NCBI GenBank assembly: GCA_027382625.1
Contig: JAJKFJ010022611.1
Span: 62,001-126,000 of the forward strand
Length of the DNA: 64,000 bases
From: Tetmemena sp. SeJ-2015
Taxonomy: Eukaryota > Ciliophora > Spirotrichea > Sporadotrichida > Oxytrichidae
Reading direction: 5' to 3'
A program made the translations under genes and the position numbers. Shown here one piece after another: positions 24,434 through 39,400 of the stretch; the first letter of the stretch is position 1, and each line of letters starts with the position of its first letter. The notes under the pieces are model-generated. The model was not told the origin of the DNA and did not search any database. It saw only the letters and a program-made list of their open reading frames with translations.

Positions 24434-27400
24434 TTCTGATTCAGTGGATTGTGATGGAAGCAACTCAATCATCATTGCAAACTTGCTTTGTGACATACCT
24501 CTGTCTACTCTGAGGCAGATTCCTTTCAACATTTAATCAGGGGACATAATCTAAGTTAGAGTAGCAGCTATAAATGTAATAGGAATAGGTGCCTACTCTC
24601 CTGCTCAGGCTGTCACTTAACTTGAGACAGAGCCTCAAGCTCCAGCTGCTCCAACCAGAGGTGCAGCAACTAGCACATCTCAAATCTAGATTCTATGGAC
24701 AGATTTAACCACCAGAGATTAGACTGGTGGTTCTGATATTACCTCATATCACTTATAGTGGGACAAAGCAACAAATCAAGGAAACTGGTATGATGTAGTG
24801 GGCCTTGATAGTCCTTTCACTGGAACTTCATTTACTCAAATCGCTAATTTTTATATGCTAATGTCGCGAGTGGAAGCCGATACTATTTCAGACTAAGAGC
24901 TCAAAACGAGCATGGATGGGGACCTTACTCTGCAGTGAGCTCTATTCTGGCAGCATACTATCCAGACTAAGTATAGATGCCAACTGTTACTGAGAACTTA
25001 GATCAGACAGTGTAGATTTATTGGAATGTTCCAAGCAGCAATGGTGCGTCAATTACAAAGTACAACATATTCATTCTGTCAATGGATGTTCTTAAATTAA
25101 TTAAATTGATGGCAATTACTACAATACTACAGCTTGCAGTGGATTGGACGCCACTATTGTTTCCCAACATTCTATTAAATAAACAGAAATAAGTGAAGAG
25201 AATCGTATATTATAAGAATAAGATCAAAGCCCAATTTTAAATTAAATGTTTCTAATTAAAAGGATAGAGTTTGGGCTAATAGAGATTAATTCTAATACTA
25301 ATTGGTGTTTAATATAATGATCAGAGCTATAATTTAAACTCTAATGTTTAATTGGGTTTCTTTTTAGAGATCTGTGATTAATCAATGGGGTGTCTAAATT
25401 TAATTAAAAACTAATCTTTTACTATTTATTAATTAAAATATATCATACTTTTCTTCTCAAACCTGAAAACATTCTCATTCACTCTAACCACTTGCTTAAA
25501 GACAAATAAATTCTTATTCTTATAACCCACGATTTATTTCACTTATTACTCTTTATTGTGCTTAATTTGTAATGAGGACTTAAAATAATTGATTACTGCA
25601 ACGTTCAGATGAGTGTGTTCTTGTCATTACCATTTGCAAGAGTTCAAGGAAACTAAATTACAGTCAAGGTACAGGCTTACAATGAAATCGGATGGGGTGC
25701 TTTATCAGACGCCAACGTCGCTGGTGCTTTGATTGCATCAGTTCCATTAAAACCAACTTCTACTCCAACTATGGTTTCTTTAAATAATTAAAAATAAAAT
25801 TCATCATTTAAAATAATTTTTATTTTTTTCAAAAAATAATTTTTTAGAGATTTTAAAAATTTGAAATTATTTTTTTTAACCATTTTTTAATAAAATTTTT
25901 TTTAAAAAAATTTTTTAAAATTAAAAATTTAGAGTAAAGGGTTAAATTCTATTGCTGTTTCAATGCCAGCTATAGTTGGACTCCTTACAGGTGGCTCTAC
26001 TATCCTTTCATACAATCTGCAATACAAGCCAAGCTCGTCTACCAACTACACCACTTTAGTAGGAGAGGCCCCTGATAGCTTGATTCTAACTTACACTAAG
26101 AACGGCTTGACAGCAAATGTCCTCTACTAATTCAGATATAGAGTGAGGAATAAGTATGGATGGGGATCTTTCTCAGATGCTGTCGCTATACTCGCAGCCT
26201 AGGTTCCTAATCAGTTAAGCACTCCAAGCATCAGCATAGTTAATGATGTCTACGTGAGAATTGACTGGACCGCGCCCTACAACGGAGGAACACCCATCAC
26301 TGCTTATAGCATTCTAATATAAGATGACCAATTATTAAATAGGAAAACAATTAATTGGGACGAGTGCTTGAGTGGTCCATGTTTTCCAAAAATTTCCTTT
26401 CTATCTTTGGCAATGATGTCATAGAATCCGATGATGAGGATGATGACTTTGAAGAAGTCAGTGACTGGGAAGAAGACTTACCCCAGGTTATTGAAAAGGA
26501 ACAAGAAACTGAGTTTCCTGACTTCAATGTTGGCATTGACTTCGAGAGTGAGCTTGATGAAAAAGACACGTGGACAAAACACGACAAATGTTTTGCGAGA
26601 TACCTTGACCTACTACAACCTCAAACACTTTGCTGGAATGGTATGAGAATCTAAGTGGTGCAAGGAGTGCCTCAGGGTGCAAAAATGTCCCCAAAACTCT
26701 TCAACATTTACGTGGATGGAATGTGGCGAACATTCCAATATGATCCAAGTAAGACCAGGTTCAAACTTTACGCGGACGACCACGTCATTCTTTTCCGAGG
26801 TTTAAGTACCGATGAACTAATTTCTGAACAGAAAAGAATAGCTCAGCATACCGGTCTGTATGGTCTACTATTAAATAGTAAAAAGTCTAAGACCATGAGA
26901 CTGAAGAAAGATATTCCCTTCTTTGACAAATTCCAGATACTAAAAGCCTAAGACATGACTACTCACTATAAATACCTGGGCACAACTATGACACATGACC
27001 CGGATGAAGTCTTAGAGAATATGTTCAGGGAATATGAACAAGATGTCAACAAATACACGAACTACTGGGCTGGTACCATTGACGAGAAACTCTAATAGAT
27101 TCTCTACAACTCCTATGTGTACTCAAAAGTCCAACACAAAATCATGCCTAACATAATTACATACTACTAATACAACAAACCCATAATAGATAGACTTAGG
27201 AAAATACACTGGGAGCATGTGAGGAAGAAAGATTACTTCCTGAAGTTTGTCTTTAGCAAAAATGACTACAAAAACCAAGCCTTCACGCCTCCAGAGGCAT
27301 TGATATATTCGGCCTTCGTAAACAACTGGTAAGAAAGAAAAAATGAAGCTGGAGAACACATCAGAGCTACAATACTAGACAACTTCCTGGGCAAAACAAA

Positions 27401-30400
27401 TTTCAACTTCTCGTGGAAAGAAATGCCTGTTTGGGATTAAGAAACTATAACTAGACTAACCCAATTCATCCCTAGTGAATTCTTCCCTTTACTTCGAAAA
27501 GGTCCCCTTAGATACATGGGAAAAGTTCTTAAATGCTACTGCGGTATTAAATGCAAAAAACACGACATGGAAGACCTATGCCTAGACACCCATATGTATT
27601 GTATGGAAAGAGGCATCAGATTCCCCTATATGGATATCTTAAGGGAGGTTGCTTAACTTGGCCAAACCTATAACAGAACTAAGAGAAGCAAAATGAAACT
27701 GAAGGAGCAGATTCAAGACATTGAGAAGGAAAAGGTGGCCCTCTCTGGCCTGAAAGACAAATTCAACTTTCACTGGAAAGAGATCAAACTCAACCTCAAG
27801 AAAAGAGCTGGTTTGAAGTGAATTATATCTAACGTAACACGGGAGGTCATGACTTCCCTAAGTTTAAACTATAACACGCAAGACGCTAGATCGTCTAAAA
27901 TGCGTTGTTATATTATTATTTATTATATTTATTATTATAGTTAATGATGTCTACGTGAGAATTGATTGGACTGCGCCCTACAACGGAGGAACACCCATCA
28001 CTGCTTATAGCATTCTAATATAAGATGACCAAGGAGATTTCATTACAGAGACCCAATACTGCGATGGCACTTCTTTGATTATAGTATAGCAAACCTATTG
28101 TGATATTCCCTTCACCACTCTAAGATCCTCATCAACATTCAATCTCTAATAAGACGATTTGATCGTGGTCAAGATATCTGCAATTAACAGTATAGGTATG
28201 GGAAGCTACTCTACTCCTAATTCTAATGGCTTGACGATTTAAACTGAGCCAGATGCCCCTATCGCAGCTCCAACACTTCAAACTTACTCTGAATCTCAAG
28301 TTACAATTACTATGACCTACTCTACTGGCTCAAGACTATTGATTGCAAGTACATAATCTAGTGCTATACTCTACTATGATCTGACTTGGGATTAAGGACT
28401 CGGAGGAACAAACAACTGGGTATCTTACACAGTCACAGCTTTGAACACAGTGACAGTGACTGGTCTATCTTCTGGAGTGGTTTATAGATTCAAGTTTAGA
28501 ACTCAGAACATATTTGGCTGGGGAGACTATTCCCCAGTGCTTACAGTCCAAGCTTAAAGTGTACCGCAAGCAGTTCCCGCAGTAACTACTACTAATGTTG
28601 CTAAGAATGTTCTTATTGACTGGACTGCACCTTACAGCGGTGGATTAGGTGTCAACATTTAATAAAAATTTATGATAACTTATCTGTTAAGACATTGAGA
28701 AGTATGATATTGCTCATATTATAATCACTTGAATTGAGAAGATTGTTGTTCTAAACTGCAAATTATTTTATAGATTTAAAAGCATTGAATAAGATATAAC
28801 AAATTTCATTAGGTTCAATATATCTTATTTATATCTTTTGAATATCAAGATCATGAAAGCTGATGGAACGTATACTTAGTACCTGACCACATGCGATGGA
28901 ACTGATGCAACTATCAATTCTATTTATAATTATTTATCATTGCATAAACATCTTGTCTGGTACCGATGAGTATACTCACCTCAACAGGCGCAGGAGGATT
29001 TTCCTTGACTTAGGGCACACTTATAGTAGCAATCGTATCAGCCTATAATGATTTGGATCAAGGACCCTACAGCTCTCCAAACACAATAGGAGCGTTAGCT
29101 CAAGTCGTGCCACTATAGCCACCTACTGCTCCAAGAAGAGGATCTTCAACCACTGACTAGCAAATTCAAGTTGATTGGGACTTCATTCAGAACCCTTGAC
29201 AATCCTTGGAGGAGCACCAGCAATCTCCTATGAGCTTCAAATTGATGATGGTAACGGAGGAAGCTTCTCAGAAGTAGTTGGATTCACAAGTCTCTACACC
29301 TTGAATTCTTACAATATCACTTCCTCAATAACAAGCGGAGCTACTTACAAAGTCAAGTATAGAGCAGCTAACATAATTGGATACGGAGCATTCAGTGCTG
29401 AGACATCCATTCAAGCCTCCACTGTTCCAGGAGCTCCTGGCTAGCCGACAACCTCTATTAATTAAGATCAAGTAGTCGTGAGCTGGGCTTAGCCTTCATT
29501 CACTGGCGGAAACGGAATACTTCTATCAAGCTATAGAGTGTAGATATTAATGAAATTTGAAGTCATTCTTGTATTTTCTAAAGAGATTTTTAATTCAATA
29601 CTAGCCTTAGATGGAACTTATAAGAACGTTTCAACTTGTACAGGTGCATCATTGACTAGTGCTACAACCTCGTGCACTTTCCCAATGGCAAGTGTAGTTC
29701 TCTCACCTTACTCACTTGTGTATAATAGTGCGATTAAAGCTATAATCTACGCCTCAAACTCAAATGGAGAGGGACCAGCTTCAATAGTGAGCACTACCAA
29801 CTAAGTAGTAATCACAGTGCCTCTCAAACCTTCCTCTTCTCCTCAAAGAGGAAGCAACTCGGACTATAATCAACTGGAAGTAACTTGGGGCGCCTTGGTC
29901 ACTCCTTCAGATGGTGGAAGTTCTATAACTTCCTATGAACTGCTTTGGGATAGCGGAGTTCAAGGAGGAATGTTCGGTGAAGTAGTTGGATTCAGCAATC
30001 CCTATACTTCAACCTCGAAGTTGATCAGCGTTACACCAGGAACGACCTATCAATTCAAGTATGCAGCTAAAAACGTAATTGGTTGGGGTGCAGTATCCGA
30101 TACTATAAGCATCAAAGCTGCTACAAAGCCAAGCAAAATTGCTACAGTTACTACTGTAGTTGAGAATCAATATGTCAAGGTATCTTGGAGCTATCCAACT
30201 GATAACTATGATGCAGTAACAGCTTATGAAATCTAAATCCAAGCTACAAATACATCTTTCCTCAATCAGATAGCATACTGTGATGGAAACTAAACAGCAA
30301 TAATAACAAACAGATACTGTCACATTCCAATGACTATCCTGAGAGATGCTACCACATTTAATCTGGCATACAACACTTTGATAGTTGTGAGGATAAGAGC

Positions 30401-33400
30401 AAGGAACACAATTGACTGGAGTGACTTTTCTGATATCAACACAGCAGGAGCCTAAATATAAGTAGAACCAGTTCAGATGGCTGCACCAACTCGAGGAAGC
30501 TCAACCTCTGCCACTTCTATCTAAGTTTCTTGGACTGCCCTCACTACAGCGTCCGATACTGGCTCATCAGCAATTACCTCCTATCATCTCCAATGGGATC
30601 AAGATGGAACTGGAACAACCTACTATGATCTAGTAGGACTATCCACAACATACACACTTACAAACTAAAATCGTTTTATTACTTACCTCGTATATAATCT
30701 CTGCTCTTCCTTCAGGAGCAAGTTACAACTTTAGAGTGAGAGCTAGAAACAGTTGGGGCTTCGGACCTTACTCTCTACCAACCAAGATCTAAGTATCTAC
30801 AACTCCCTTGACTATTGCTGCACCAACTGTTTCAGTATCTGGAGTCAATGTGAGAATTACCTGGTTACCTCCAGACACTCAAGGAAGCGCTATTACTCAG
30901 TATTAGATTCTGGTAAAGTAATCTAGTGGAGTCTATTCTGAAAACACTCAGTACTGCGATGGATCCTTAGCTATCATTGTTAGCCAGAGCTACTGCGAGA
31001 TTCCAATGAGCACTCTCAGAGCTTCTCCTTATTCTCTCGGCTATAATGATCTTGTTCAAGCCAAAGTTCAATTAATTTTTTTACAGGAAAAAATTATACA
31101 TTTAAGTTTCCCTTTATAGATAATGGTATTAATAATTTAAAAAGTAAGAGAAAAAAGAAATATTTTTAGAGAAAAAAATATTTGAATTAAAGTTTTAGCT
31201 AAGAATGCCAACGGATGGAATACCGTTTCATCTATAAATACAGCTGGAGCTCTAATCTAAACAGTACCTACTCAAATGGCTGCAGTAACTCGAGGTTCAT
31301 TGACTTCAGAATCTCAAATCGAAGTCAAGTGGGTCGCTCTGAGCACTAATGCACAAATAGGAGGATCACCCATTGTGTCTTACTATTTACAATGGGACCA
31401 AGGATCAAATGGAGCCTCAATTATATTTTAAGCCACTTGGTATGACTTAATTGGTTTGACTTCTATTTACCCATTCACATCCTTCATCGTAATAACGAAC
31501 GTAGTTGCAGGTACAGACTACTAGTTTACAATTTCTGCAAGAAACGCGCACGGCATCGGTGCTGCATCTGCGATATCTACGATTGAAGCTAGTGACATAC
31601 CAGTTTAGATGACTCAAGTATAAACCTTCATAGCTAATGATATCTATGTCAGAATAAAATGGGATGCTCCTGATAGCAACTCTAACCTTATCAAGGCCTA
31701 TAAGATATTCATTATGAAAAAAAGGAATTTATTTCTTCTAACTAATTTAAAATTATTGATTGATCAAGACTAAAGCAGGCGCTTATGTTGAAGATACAAC
31801 TAATTGCAATCATATCAAAGCTGGAATTTATATTATCTTAATCTTCATATAATTAATGGCGCTAATCCAACTATTATCTCTCAGCAATATTGCGATATGT
31901 TAATGACAACTCTCAGAGCATCTCCATATCTCCTAGCTTATAACGACTTAGTTCAAGTTTTTTAAAAGGATATCCATATCATTAATTTTTTTAAATACGA
32001 AGGTCACAGCTTAAGAGGCGATGATAACTTGTAAAATAATGAATTTATCAATAAAGTCCAGAATATTTAGCCAAAATGTTAGAATTTTAACTCTTTTTTT
32101 AAATTAGAGCACATACTGTCATTGACGAGGCTAATTATATCTAGAAAGGCTGAGAATGCCCTACAAACTGACTAATATCCTATGGCCATAGAATAGAAAA
32201 ACAGCGCATCCTGGCAAAAATTTTGTTTGTGCAAAGAGCAAGCTTGTATCCTTTTTCAATTTTCGGTTATATACTCATATCAGTTGTATCATTAATTAAA
32301 ATTATAGACAAAGCAGCCTAAGACGAAAGAGCTCAATCTTTAAGGTAACTTTTCAAAAAGAATTTGAATATTTTATATATCTGTTTGAGTATTAAATATC
32401 TTATTTAAAAATATAAGACTGGCCGCTGTCTCGGGAGAATTATGATTCAAACTAAAATGGATTTTTATTTTTACTCCCTCAACTTTAACTAAATAGTTCA
32501 AGCAGATTTAATTAATTTTTAATAAAGCAGTGGCTTAAGCCCAAAATGATATCGGATGGTCTATTCTCTCACCTGTGAATACAATCGGTGCAACAATCGA
32601 GACTGAGCCTTTCTAGATGGCAGCCCCAACTAGAGGTTCTCAAACAACAGAACTGTAAATAGAAGTGTTCTATGCAGCTCTCACTTCAAATTAAAATGGT
32701 GGCGCAACAATTGACTCCTATAATCTACAGTATGACAACGCTACTAATGGAGGAACATGGACTGATCTCTAGGGACAAGCTGGCTCTTTCTCTACTTTAC
32801 TTACATACATAGTAAGTTAAAATGTTGTCAAGGGATCTGCTTACCAGTTCAGAGTTAGCGCACATAATATATTCGGATGGGGTGTGTTCTCATCAGTCAC
32901 GACAATTTACTCTGCAACAGTCCCAGCAAAACCTGTTGCACCAACGACTACCATTAACAACATCTTCATTAAGGTGAAGTGGGATCCACCTTATAGCAAT
33001 AGTGGAACTATCACAGGCTATAGAATTATGGTAGCAGATAGGAACGTTTCATTCTCAATAGAGTCCACTTATTGTAATGGACTTATCAATCCTGTGCTCA
33101 GTCAGTTGTATTGTGAAATTCCAATGACTGTACTTCGAGCTCTTCCTTATCTATTGCCTTTTGATCAAGTGGCCTACTTCAAAGTCTAGGCTTTAAATCA
33201 ATATGGATCCAGCGACTGGTCAGATGCCAACTCAGCAGGAGCTTAGATCTAAGTAGAACCTATCAAAGTTTATGGACTAGAGAGAGGATCTAATACTAAC
33301 GAGGCTTAAATTGAACTAAGTTGGGACTATCTCACTACTCACATAGAAACAGGAGGTTCAGACGTGATTACTTATAATCTTCAATGGGATGCTGGTTATA

Positions 33401-36400
33401 GCTAATTGCTTTGGTCTGACCTTGTTGGCTATACATCTCTCTACACTGGAAGTAGTTACATAGTAACTCAAGGTGTGATTGCTAACAGATAGTACAGCTT
33501 CAAAGTAAGAGCCAAGAACTTCTGGGGCTGGGGCAACTTTAGTGATATCATCACTATCAAGTCAAGTGCAGCTCCTTCTAAGATGAGCACAGTTACAACT
33601 TCAATCTATGCACTCACAGGAGGAGTGAAGATTACATTTGTTGCACCAAGTCCAAACTCAGACGTTATCACAAAATACAAGATCGAGATCTAGAAGTAAG
33701 ATGGCACATTCGCAGAGGACACTACAAATTGTGATGGCACAAATTCAGTGATAATTGCTCAATTGTACTGTGTAGTCCCAATGGCTGTTTTGATAGATTC
33801 AACAAAGTTTGATCTTGACTTCTAAGATCTAGTTGTGGTAAGAGCTAGTGCTTACAACGTAAATGGTTGGGGAGACACTTCAGATGTTAATTCAGTAGGA
33901 GCTACAGTTAAGATCATTCCAATACAAATGGGGGATCCAGTGAGAGGTTCTTTAACTTCACAGCAGTAGATTCAAGTTAACTGGACTCCACTTACCTCAG
34001 TTAGTGCCACTGGTGATTCACCCATAACTTCATACTAATCTTCAATGGGATGCAGGAACTAACGGAGGAACGTGGACTAATCTAATAGGATATTCATCCC
34101 CTTCTACCTCTCTGAAATTCACTGTTTCGTATGGAATAACACCAGGACAGTAATATCTGTTCCAAGTGAGAGCAATGAACATTTATGGATTTGGAGAATT
34201 CTCCAACCAAGTTTAAATCCAAGCCTCAGGCATTCCAAGCTAAACTGATATTCCTCAAGTCTCACCTCAAGGTCTGCAAGTAAAGATAAGTTGGGTCAGG
34301 GCTTCCTTAAACTCTGCAGATCTGGTTGGATATAAGGTTACAATCAGAAAGAGCGACGGCACATATGTAGAAGACACCACTCTTTGCAACGGAATGGATT
34401 CAACAATCATAAGCCAGCAGTACTGCCTCATACCTTTCACTTCATTAAGGAACGCAGCAACTTTCAATCTTGCACTTGGAACTCTGATTCAAGCAAGAGT
34501 CTAAACTGAGAATGACAATTTAAAATGCAAGCCAAGATATTGAGCTTAAATTTCACTTATCTTAAATGGATGGGGAGATACTTCAGAGCCAAACTCATCT
34601 GGAGTTTAATATATATTTTTAGCAACAATACAAACTGAACCAGGAAAAGCATCTCAGCCTACAATGAATTCCATTTCAAGTACTTCAGTCATTAGCGTTG
34701 ACTGGACTGCAGTGAGCATTACTGGAGGCTCTCCAATACTTTCCTACAAAGTAGAGTGGGATCAAGGATCTAGCACTTGGTAAACTGTCCAAGGAGACGT
34801 TGGTTCACCAGCACTTAGCTTTATTACACGACAACCTAAGTTCTCACGCCTGGAAGTACTTACTCATTTAGAGTAACCGCAGTTAACCTTCATGGCTCAG
34901 GAGCGGTATCTGATGTTACCCAGGTCTTAGCCTCAGGAGTTCCAGATACCCCAGTCGCACCTGAAACCTAAATCAACAATAACTTAGTAAGAGTGACTTG
35001 GAATGCCCCTTTCAATAACTTTGAAGCCGTCAGCCAATACAAGATTGTCATTCAGCAAAGCAACTCAGTATTCTCTGAGCAGCTATTCTACTGTGATGGA
35101 AGCAGTTTAGTTATCATAGGTCAGCGATACTGTGAGATACCTATGAGTGTGCTACTTGCTAGTCCTTACAGTCTAAGTGCAAACACCATCATTGCTGTAT
35201 AAGTTCAGGCCAAAAATTCAAAAGGATGGGGACCTCTTTCAAGTTCAAGCGTCTAATACGCTATTGTCTAAACTGTGCCTTCTCAAATGACTCCAGTAGT
35301 TAGGGTCGATAGCACAACCACTGTTGCTTAAATCACAGTCTCGTGGACTGCCTAGACTTTAGCAAACTCAGGATACTCAACAGTTACCTCTTATAACATC
35401 CAATTTGATTCTGGAACAGGTGGAGTTACTTGGGTAAACTTGACTGGTAGTACTTAAGATTTCCTTCCTTCCCCTCTGAGCTATACCGTTTCATCTTCGA
35501 TCTCAGCTGGCACATTTTATTAGTTTAGAATAAGGTCAGCAAACAAATGGGGCCTGGGAGCTTTCTCAGATACGACAATTATCAAAGCAGCAACATCTCC
35601 ACCTCAGATGAGTGCTCCAGTTTTAAGCATTGACAGCTCCACTGGAGGAGTGAAGATTGCCTGGACCGCTCCTTATAACAATGCAGATACTATAACAAAG
35701 TATAAGATTGAGATCTTAACTGACACTGATGCTACAACTCCCAGCACCTACCTTGAAACCACTACTTATTGTGATGGCACTTCAGCTTCAGTCATTATTG
35801 CATTAATAACGATTAGGAAATTATCAATAAAAAATGGAGTCTATTCTTATTATAGAATTGAAATTATAAAAATTCTTTATAGCCAAGCAATTAAATGAGT
35901 TATCTTATCAACTTAAAATTAAATCTATGAATAGCAACTCATTCTGCATTATACCTATGAGTGCTTTAATAGCATCTCCTTACAGCCTCGACTATCTAGA
36001 ATAAGTTATAGCGAGAGTGAGTGCTTACAATTCCTATGGATGGAGCACAGTTTCTCCCTCTAATACAGCAGGAGCCACTATCAGAGTTGTCCCAGTTAAA
36101 ATTAATTTCATTTAAAATGGTATCTCCATCTCGAGGTACAGACACCACAATTTCTCAAATTGAAGTTGACTGGACTCCACTTACTACTACCTCTGACATA
36201 GGAGGCTCAGCTATTACTAGCTATAGACTTTAGTGGGACTATGGCACAGCACAAGGAGACTGGCAAGACTTAGTTGGCTATGACTTCAACTATGTAAACC
36301 TCAGCTACTTAGTAACAAGTGGACTATTGCCCAATAAGCAGTACTACTTCAGAGTGCAAGCCAAGAATATCTATGGATTCGGCGCTTTCTCAGATCCCAC

Positions 36401-39400
36401 TGCAATTTCTACGGAGTAAGAGCCTGCTTAGGTGACCGGAGTAAGCACCTCAAATGATGGATTATATGTTACTGTGGCCTGGTAGAACCCTTTCAATAAC
36501 TACGATGATGTAACAGCATACAAGGTCGAGTTCAGAGATGCCTCTGGTAACTATCATGAGATACCAACTTATTGCGATGGCTCTCTACTCACTATAGTCA
36601 ACACTCGAACTTGCACTAACATTCCTATTACTGTGTTTAGAGACACTCCTACAATATTCAGCCTCACTTATGGAATGCTTATAGCAGCAAGGGTCAAGGC
36701 CTCACAAATTTTATATAAGCATCTTTACATAAGACAAAAATCATTATTTTTTTTAAGTATTAATTAGAAATCTAGTAATTAAGGTGGCATTGAATTTTTG
36801 CTTTCAAAATTTTATTTTAAGGCTTAGAACTCATATGGATGGTCAATTGATGGACAACCAAATACTCAGGGTGCTGTTATATAGACAGTCCCAACTTAAA
36901 TGAACACTCCTACCTATCTGCCACTACTATCCTCATAAAGTTCGATATCTCTGAGTTGGTCTGCTCTCACTACCAATGCAGCTAAGGGTGGTGATCTAGT
37001 CATCAACTCTTACAATCTTCAGTACATAGCTGGACCAGACTTCACACCCGACATTTGGAGTGATATTCAAGGCTAAGACGGATCATTAACTGATGCAATT
37101 ACAGGAGCACTCTCCACAGGCATTACTCTCGGTACTCAATACAGATTTAGAGTACGTGCAAGTAACATTCATGGATGGGGAGCCTGGAGTGCATACTTGC
37201 AAGTGCTAGCTACAGATGTTCCTGCCAAGCCTAGTGCAGTTCAAACTCAGATTGATAACCTAAATGTAAAGGTCACCTGGTCAGTGCCCAGCAACGTAAA
37301 CTACGCTACAGTAACAGGTTATAAAGTCAAGATTGTGAATTCTGTTGGAGCCTACATAGAAGATACTACTTACTGTAATGGAATGGACTTCTAGATATTG
37401 GCACAACTGTACTGCACCTTGCCCATGCAGTACCTCAGAGATAGCACTGGAAGTTTCTAACTCTCTTATAACACACTTGTTACTGCTGTTGTGTCTGCCT
37501 ATAACATCAATCTATTAAATTTATGTCATCATACGAGAAATTAATTTAAAATCATTTAAATAAACAATGTCTTTTAAAATTAAGTAATTTAAGAAGTCAA
37601 TAAAATTTTCAAATTAAGGTTCTAAAAAAGACTCCCAAATATCTTTAATTTTAAGATAACCTTGCAATTTTTACACAAAAAATTTAATCTTGAATATATC
37701 TTATTAAAAAGTGTAATGGTATTGTTTATCGATTTACTGTGAATGGCTATGGTGCGTTCTCAGATCCTAATTTATCAGGTGCAGTTATTTAAACTGAGCC
37801 AGTGCAAATGGCAATAGTAACTAAAGGCTCTTTGACAAGTTAATCTCAAATCTAAGTGGCTTGGACAGCCTTGAGCACTGCTCCTCAGAATGGCGGTTCA
37901 GTAGTGCTCTCATATAATCTTGTCTATGACTCAGGCACACTAGGATTATCTTGGACACCTCTCATCGGACTGACTGCAAACTACCTGTCAACTTCTTATA
38001 TTGCTTCAACAGGCATAGTGCCAGGCAGCAGCTATCAATTTAAGGTGAGAGCTTTGAATAAGTGGGGATGGGGAGCCTACTCAGATCCCTTCACTGTTCA
38101 GGCGTCAGCAGTGCCAGCGTAGCCTGACGCTCCTCAGACTTCAGTCTCAAGTATTAATGGAAACTTAGTCATTACGTGGAATCCTCCTAACAGCAGAAAC
38201 AATGCTATTGACAAGTACTTCATTGAAATTAGAAACAAGCTAACTACAAATTGGTATTAAGACTCCACTGACTGCAATGGAGCAGACTCAACAGTCATTA
38301 TTCTTTAAGTATTCTCAATTTTAAATTGTTTGGAGTACTAAATAATTAAGCAATAGCAATTTGAGGTGTGAGATTCCTATGAGCACCCTACTAGCAATAC
38401 CATACAATTTAGCCTTATCGGGTCTAATTGTGGTAAGAGTAAGCGCTCATAATGCAAACGGATGGAGCTCCACCTCAAGTTAAAATACATTTGGAGCGAC
38501 TGTTAAGACAATACCTGCACAGATGACAGCTCCTTCTCGAGGCTCGGAGACATCTGAATAGTAAATTCAGATCACTTGGTCGGCACTCACAACTACAGTT
38601 TAAACTGGAGACTCGGCTATTCAAAATTTAAAAACCAAAGCATAAATCTAATTAAATCAATATCATATTGAATATTCTCTCGTATATGCTAGAGTGGGAC
38701 TAGGGTTCAAGTCAGTGGCAGGTACTAGTAGGGTTCCCTAGTAACTCACTCCTTCTCTCTTACATAGTCTCAACATAAGTAACTGCAGGCTCCTCTTATG
38801 TGTTCAGAGTAACTGCTAAAAACATATATGGCTTCGGCCCAGTTTCCTCTCTGACTACAATTGATGCAAGTGATGTCCCAGAGCAGCCTGATCCGGTCAC
38901 AACTGTCAACTAAGGCGATCAGATTGAAGCGACTTGGAATGCCCCAGACTCAAACAGTGATGACATCTTTGCCTATCAAATTCAATTCCTGACTTCTGAT
39001 GGCAGCACTTTCCTTGAAACATCAGCATGTAATGGCTATACATCTCCAGCAAAGGATAATCGAGTCTGCCTAATTGATATGGACATATTTACTGACGCTT
39101 CGACTTACGCATTAACTCAAAATGATTACGTTGTAGGGAGGGTAAGAGCTTAGAACGCAATTGGATACTCGGACTGGTCTTAAATTTCAGCATCTCTCTC
39201 AGGAGCCTTCATTAAGACTTTGCCATCTTAAGTATCAGCACCTTATCTTGGCACAGATATATCTCTCACTCAACTGGAGGTGTTATGGGATGAATTAAGT
39301 GGAGACTCAACTGGCTCAGACGATATCGACTCCTACTAGGTTGATTATGACGCAGGTTCAAATGGTTTGACTTGGACTGAAGCTCGCTGGCTAGGATGGA

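Follow-up and report, generated by a model that had tools for sequence, protein, structure and literature searches.

The window analysed here is a stretch of 64,000 nucleotides from the ciliate Tetmemena sp. SeJ-2015 (assembly GCA_027382625.1, contig JAJKFJ010022611.1, positions 62,001 to 126,000 of the forward strand). Within it, a retroelement of 1605 bp (26332..27936, + strand), flanked by two 96-bp direct repeats, interrupts a gene that encodes a long protein with fn3 domains. This element is quite probably one segment, termed C, of a multipartite retrotransposon of the long interspersed nuclear element (LINE) type, in which the reverse transcriptase (RT) is split between C and another element, termed N. 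It also appears fairly likely that the family comprises four or more, possibly six, separately mobile segments, each about 1.6 kb long, which have the same ends and an RT split in the palm between two of them, and none of which can move without the others. Segmented genomes are known for viruses, and we know of no segmented retrotransposon. In the open-access literature listings, only some of which came from searches aimed at this question and outside which most subscription papers lie, no split or segmented retrotransposon turned up.

The window copy is of full length, with ends common to other copies of the family; from leader to tail core, the C segment spans 1574 bp. Its 5′ leader (..TATTAAATAGG...GGACGAGTGC...; 26332..26378, + strand) is common to the N and O segments and partly to X. 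An intact open reading frame (ORF) of 480 codons with a TGA stop follows (26379..27821, + strand), TAA and TAG being read as Gln in this genome, some contigs of which start with spirotrich-like C4A4 repeats. In this ORF, an acidic N-terminal stretch precedes the C-terminal half of an RT. The RVT_1 profile matches it with an E value of 5e-13, which confirms the retrotransposon inside FN3 coding DNA that had been claimed from the letters of the sequence in an earlier reading (the original prediction). The match covers only positions 101-204 of the 205 in the profile, that is, the second half of the RT domain, and includes the palm motifs B (GVPQG) and C (YADD) (26589..26987, + strand). The ORF is followed by the common 3′ tail (27835..27936, + strand), with two conserved RNA hairpins and a T/A-rich run at its end; in the window, hairpin 1 is shortened by the loss of a few bases.

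The alignment of C with a group II intron RT starts at C residue 157 (E 0.004), and diverged C relatives (39-51% identity) begin at C residue 1. The 5′-truncated C copies begin at element positions 199, 267, 610, 748 and 763. That the window element is itself a 5′-truncated LINE was considered and rejected, as full-length copies and diverged relatives share its start base or residue. Neither C nor N matched anything in a set of 5.8 billion proteins, in which only relatives sharing short words are detectable.

The N segment is a separate element of 1.6 kb, with leader and tail as in C. It encodes an APE endonuclease (Exo_endo_phos 1-225) and the first half of an RT (RVT_1 6-93), and then stops. 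In three intact copies (C3475, C2059 and C1247), the stop lies one base before the tail core, and one broken copy that has diverged (L077; main pieces 55-76% identical) still matches up to the last residue of N just before the tail. The ORFs of C and N are intact in three copies each. An autonomous LINE would carry a complete RT on one element and encode its own endonuclease; here C covers profile positions 101-204 and N covers 6-93, and a domain profile search of the C segment gave no match to an endonuclease domain, which is found on N.

The contigs searched amounted to 146 Mb, all those sized being longer than 10 kb, and may be the long-contig part of the germline assembly (237 Mb, N50 14.7 kb, with a macronuclear guanine-plus-cytosine content of 37%, as given in part of PMC9797194). 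In these contigs, N matched 17 and C matched 17, with none in common; both counts are lower bounds, and two of the N contigs (C240 and C1970) were matched mainly via flank in the query. The genome search with RVT_1 gave 14 matches, comprising eight of the C type, five first-part matches from other LINEs and one at contig C2749. The C-type matches start at profile positions 85-108, and the first half is present in none of the eight. The N segments are not among the 14, presumably because their match is weak. In the contiguous RT-like protein of C2749, from the same genome, N aligns at 549-631 and C at the adjacent 645-685, both weakly (E 0.01 and 0.08, respectively, in a three-sequence search with very low scores). 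This locus (L071, C2749:195500-199000) holds an open frame of 1166 amino acids, endonuclease- and RT-like, which by eye is without the first Asp of motif A and without YADD; it is possibly a domesticated or dead RT gene.

It might be argued that a single complete LINE, absent from these contigs, gave rise to N, C, O and X as non-autonomous derivatives, which hitch-hike on it via the tail, their ORFs being mere remnants. Non-autonomous elements often carry the 3′ tail of their partner, and the search was confined to the contigs described above; no complete endonuclease-RT partner with the family tail was found in them, though one may lie in other parts of the germline genome. Against this explanation, the break points in the RT domain are complementary, no contig matches both halves, and diverged relatives retain the same segment boundaries. 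In addition, the coding sequences are under selection, with ratios of nonsynonymous to synonymous substitution (dN/dS) of 0.02-0.09 between intact copies of all four classes, unlike what a decayed or parasitic derivative would show. This explanation is therefore unlikely. Because the test for a whole RT failed and the frames are under selection, cooperating segments are the reading that remains.

The selection is seen in each class separately. For C, dN/dS between intact copies is 0.03-0.04 (window-C536, window-C2573 and C536-C2573), window-C2573 being the safer pair as C536 is possibly a mixed contig; the window copy against the 5′-truncated C2879 falls within the same range. Three pairs of intact copies each gave 0.02-0.04 for N and 0.05-0.09 for O. 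For X, the two long frames compared with each other gave 0.06. Among pairs that involve two shorter copies of the same subfamily, four gave 0.04-0.08 and one gave 0.18, and comparison with a diverged copy gave 0.09-0.22 where computable. Pairs with broken or truncated copies often have higher values, up to 0.42 (C), 0.39 (N) and 0.32 (O), as decay is expected to produce. The values for the further classes Y and Z are 0.2 and 0.17, with few changes behind both.

The segments are also held together by their ends. C, N and O have leader, tail and length in common (1574-1614 bp), and they are inserted separately, with their own flanks and target duplications. X has the tail and the GAGTGC..ATGAGTG part of the leader, and measures about 1593 bp from its assumed start; in the one copy examined, no target duplication was resolved. 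The proteins of O and X are of unassigned function, and Y and Z are further classes that carry the same tail. On the diverged contig C2473, an X-like and an O-like segment are separated by 2 kb, and each carries a tail of its own. Y and Z (L089, L091 and L090, L092) encode unknown proteins, and the overlapping frames of Y might need a frameshift. N segments occur as inverted pairs at two loci (C107:7504-10510 and C2617:118351-119987).

In 16 tails from all six classes, the two hairpins are kept and 93.7% of the cells pair. Covariation is found at seven pairs, with 19 cells changed on both sides. None of 500 shuffles reached the observed cell count, percentage paired or covariation score, and one of the 500 reached the observed number of double-changed pairs, values that are to be read knowing that the structure was drawn after viewing the alignment and that kinship among the sequences inflates the shuffle test. 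Sliding the pairing partners abolishes the covariation signal.

In the mechanism that we propose, N would supply the APE endonuclease and the first RT half (fingers and palm motif A), and C the second half, from palm motifs B and C onward. The two proteins would associate in trans into a complete endonuclease/RT, which may recognise the conserved hairpin tail on the RNA of any segment. After nicking the target, it would insert a copy of the bound RNA by target-primed reverse transcription. Each segment would jump singly, yet depend on the products of the others; the complementary RT halves and the selection on the ORFs suggest this interdependence. In the window, a C segment would have inserted into the FN3 gene in one haplotype, with element-free copies of the locus persisting, and the first base of the second 96-bp copy (27937) would mark the first-strand nick. 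The joint action of N and C, the recognition of the tail and the origin of the 96-bp duplication are what we infer from these comparisons.

Several points weigh against this model. The joint action of N and C is deduced by comparing sequences. The predicted structure of the C half alone is of low confidence, with a mean predicted local distance difference test (pLDDT) of 35. The RVT_1 match of N lies under the Pfam cut-off (19.6 of 29.6 bits), and an N profile of three near-identical sequences found no match among solved structures. Y and Z have the tail alone in common with the rest, and the two ORFs of Y overlap. In the covariation analysis of the tail, the count of pair types is unremarkable, being attained by 73 of 500 shuffles. 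A complete parent element could lie in sequence outside the 146 Mb, and other complete LINE RTs of the genome, which have RNase H, might help in trans. The fetched stretches of these RNase H-bearing LINEs do not contain the family tail.

These other LINEs were met among the five first-part RVT_1 matches (profile 6-102). Four of them were fetched, and they proved to be LINEs rather than N segments, with an RNase H-like end and a long insert that separates motif A from motif B. Three contain both halves of the RT, in one case across a frame break, and the fourth is decayed. The idea that all RTs are split genome-wide was dropped, the five first-half matches not being N segments. At L067, L068 and L069 (C80, C192 and C3382), LINE RTs have both halves at one locus (at L069 across a frame break), together with this insert and the RNase H-like end.

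For the way in which the family inserts, 26 other copies (12 C, 8 N, 5 O and 1 X) were inspected for target duplications. A clear duplication is present in 11, with lengths of 13, 13, 12, 13 and 13 bp for C, 11, 14 and 14 bp for N, and 12, 13 and 10 bp for O; in the remaining 15 none was resolvable, e.g., where the flanks were mixed, the contig was cut or AT-rich runs blurred the junction. The 96 bp of the window is the sole exception to 10-14 bp. A 96-bp repeat as a trait of the family is hence ruled out by the resolvable relatives. Eight of the 11 duplications start with ATA or TAT, and that of the window starts with ATA; such starts fit priming on a (TTA)n tail, though weakly, the sequence being AT-rich. 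The family thus shows target duplications, a 3′ tail and 5′-truncated copies, as target-primed reverse transcription would leave them, priming itself being the presumed step.

In the FN3 gene, the left flank (25944..26235, + strand) leads into repeat copy 1 (26236..26331, + strand), and copy 2 (27937..28032, + strand) leads into the right flank (28033..28659, + strand). Copy 1 has C,C at both variable sites, the alleles of contig C1088 at these two, and copy 2 has T,T and is identical to contig C4901. Direct comparison bore out the claim that the copies differ by only two silent C/T changes: 94 of 96 nucleotides are identical, and the only mismatches are 26265/27966 and 26271/27972, C in copy 1 against T in copy 2, in Asp and Ala codons. 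It is equally correct that the protein is restored once the element has been taken out along with one of the copies; the two together make 1701 nt, which is divisible by 3, and after their deletion in silico the frame stays open. In window positions 10000-45000, a search with a 20-nt exact seed reported no direct repeat of at least 50 nt besides the 96-bp pair.

Direct-repeat flanks and a gene restored by exact removal are also the marks of an internal eliminated sequence (IES), and the element with its 96-bp copies has both. The original prediction saw here a LINE turned into an IES, with the 96-bp repeat as its pointer. The duplication-flanked retroelement in coding DNA stands; an IES and pointer role is hypothetical, and the locus also occurs without the element on two other contigs. 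Of the contigs searched, both the left flank (388 bp) and the right flank (723 bp) hit the same three, namely that of the window, C4901 and C1088. C4901 and C1088 each have a single 96-mer and no element, and the reading frame is unbroken at the site in both, in C1088 inside an ORF of 1614 amino acids.

C4901 keeps AT-rich inserts on both sides of the site. One is a different version of that at window 25779-25943 and the other corresponds to about 28655-28841; they lie within about 300 bp on the left and 620 bp on the right. Because these inserts are retained on either side of the empty site, C4901 is probably a germline chromosome, and an empty germline allele would then exist. Farther right, between window 29544-38168 and C4901 (L009 and L032), 14 inserts of 16-233 bp occur in one contig only, ten in C4901 and four in the window. 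C4901 may therefore be a mixed contig, since four window inserts are missing from it, and the 14 differences reflect either a mixed germline/somatic assembly or true IES polymorphism. C1088 is without most inserts, has five that the window lacks, diverges by 2-3% where the sequence is coding and has a frame that stays open across the site; it may be a largely processed molecule, another allele or a paralogue. When empty-site homologues were sought for three other C copies, one was found (C787:746-1554, with 92% identity, for the C insertion in C1900) and none for the other two.

The removal of the element as an IES, with the 96-bp repeat as pointer, would be compatible with a multipartite retrotransposon, as it concerns the fate of the insert. 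The exact deletion between repeats does restore the frame, spirotrichs use direct-repeat pointers (as described in part of PMC9797194), and in Blepharisma retrotransposon sequence is partly excised as IES (according to an excerpt of PMC9942856). However, of the two element-free contigs one is of germline type close to the site, so that an uninterrupted copy exists without excision, and the C/T differences are allelic. Such a fate is accordingly improbable. An excerpt of PMC3558436 on the Oxytricha macronuclear genome reports RVT_1 in telomerase only, so that hypotrichs probably have elements of this kind in the germline alone.

The two C/T differences are allelic, because both alleles occur on other contigs. 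Window 26037-26271 sides with C1088 against C4901 at eight sites, including both copy-1 C/T sites, and in the sequence from copy 2 to 29085 the agreement is with C4901, at 16 further sites besides the two C/T sites. At 26319, a third site in the repeat, both copies have the C4901 base. The differences are uninformative on age, and their origin by mutation after insertion is ruled out. Nor would the variant kept in somatic DNA, which the original prediction regarded as informative, reveal which copy is retained.

A more serious contender, to which we give somewhat less than an even chance, is that assembly produced the 96-bp duplication or the two differences in it, the contig switching haplotype at the element. 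The flanks fit this idea, the left having C1088 alleles and the right C4901 alleles as set out above; elsewhere too, the agreement of the window switches several times between the two contigs, and whole inserts come and go. This suggests that the consensus combines different haplotypes, and probably germline with somatic molecules as well; the Tetmemena assembly was a merger of short- and long-read contigs (stated in part of PMC9797194). Moreover, contigs are mis-joined at copies of the C element: C4518 fuses the left flank of the C2879 insertion to the right flank of the C1900 insertion, each 100% identical over about 410 bp, and C536 has the right flank, and not the left, in common with C2879. 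Phase arguments at the window site are weakened by these mis-joins, our own included. On the other hand, both junctions fall within the FN3 gene, in the same orientation and 96 bp from each other, which makes the insertion here real; the 3′ junction begins with ATA like several others, and a switch of haplotype accounts for the two differences more easily than for the repeat. The length of the duplication is perhaps an effect of assembly.

A very unlikely alternative is that the insertion was resolved between homologues, synthesis of the cDNA having started on the T,T chromosome and its far end having been joined to the C,C chromosome at a distance of 96 bp. A single event would then yield both the unusual length, against 10-14 bp in the 11 others, and the switch of alleles. 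Copy 1, however, has the C4901 allele at the third site, and allele switches are common along the contig.

Two further observations concern this locus. The IES at 25779-25943 (L009 742-941) is strongly different between the window and C4901, and an inspection by eye suggests that in the window its right boundary has shifted, in which case a simple pointer-guided removal would cost about five codons. In C1088 (L010 1840-1854), sequence matching 66268-68085, in numbering that runs past the window end, is joined to window position 24434; the two parts overlap by 15 bp and the frame is open, which reflects either scrambled gene order or a paralogue.

If the multipartite retrotransposon is real, an enzyme would draw its catalytic residues from two separately inherited genes, a new layout and a natural split RT, and selfish elements would be bound to obligate cooperation. 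It would raise the questions of why the segments are near-equal in length, whether they are co-packaged and how they are retained together through meiosis and nuclear development.

Among known systems, the pointer IESs of spirotrichs resemble the window insert in lying between direct repeats in coding germline DNA; here, in contrast, element-free copies of the locus exist, and the repeat is 96 bp against the 2-12 bp that the original prediction gave for the window. APE-type LINEs have in common with the family the APE endonuclease, an RT, no long terminal repeats (none were seen), duplications of 10-14 bp and a hairpin-bearing 3′ tail, whereas here the endonuclease with the first RT half and the second RT half are on separate elements. 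Short interspersed nuclear elements (SINEs) and other non-autonomous elements share the tail of a LINE and insert separately; unlike them, N, C, O and X each have a long ORF under strong purifying selection. At the telomeres of Drosophila, HeT-A and TART offer a case in which one element uses the RT of another, but that RT is whole and on one element. Segmented RNA viruses, finally, consist of several segments that have conserved ends and encode one protein or another of their own, while the segments described here are retroelement insertions in chromosomes.

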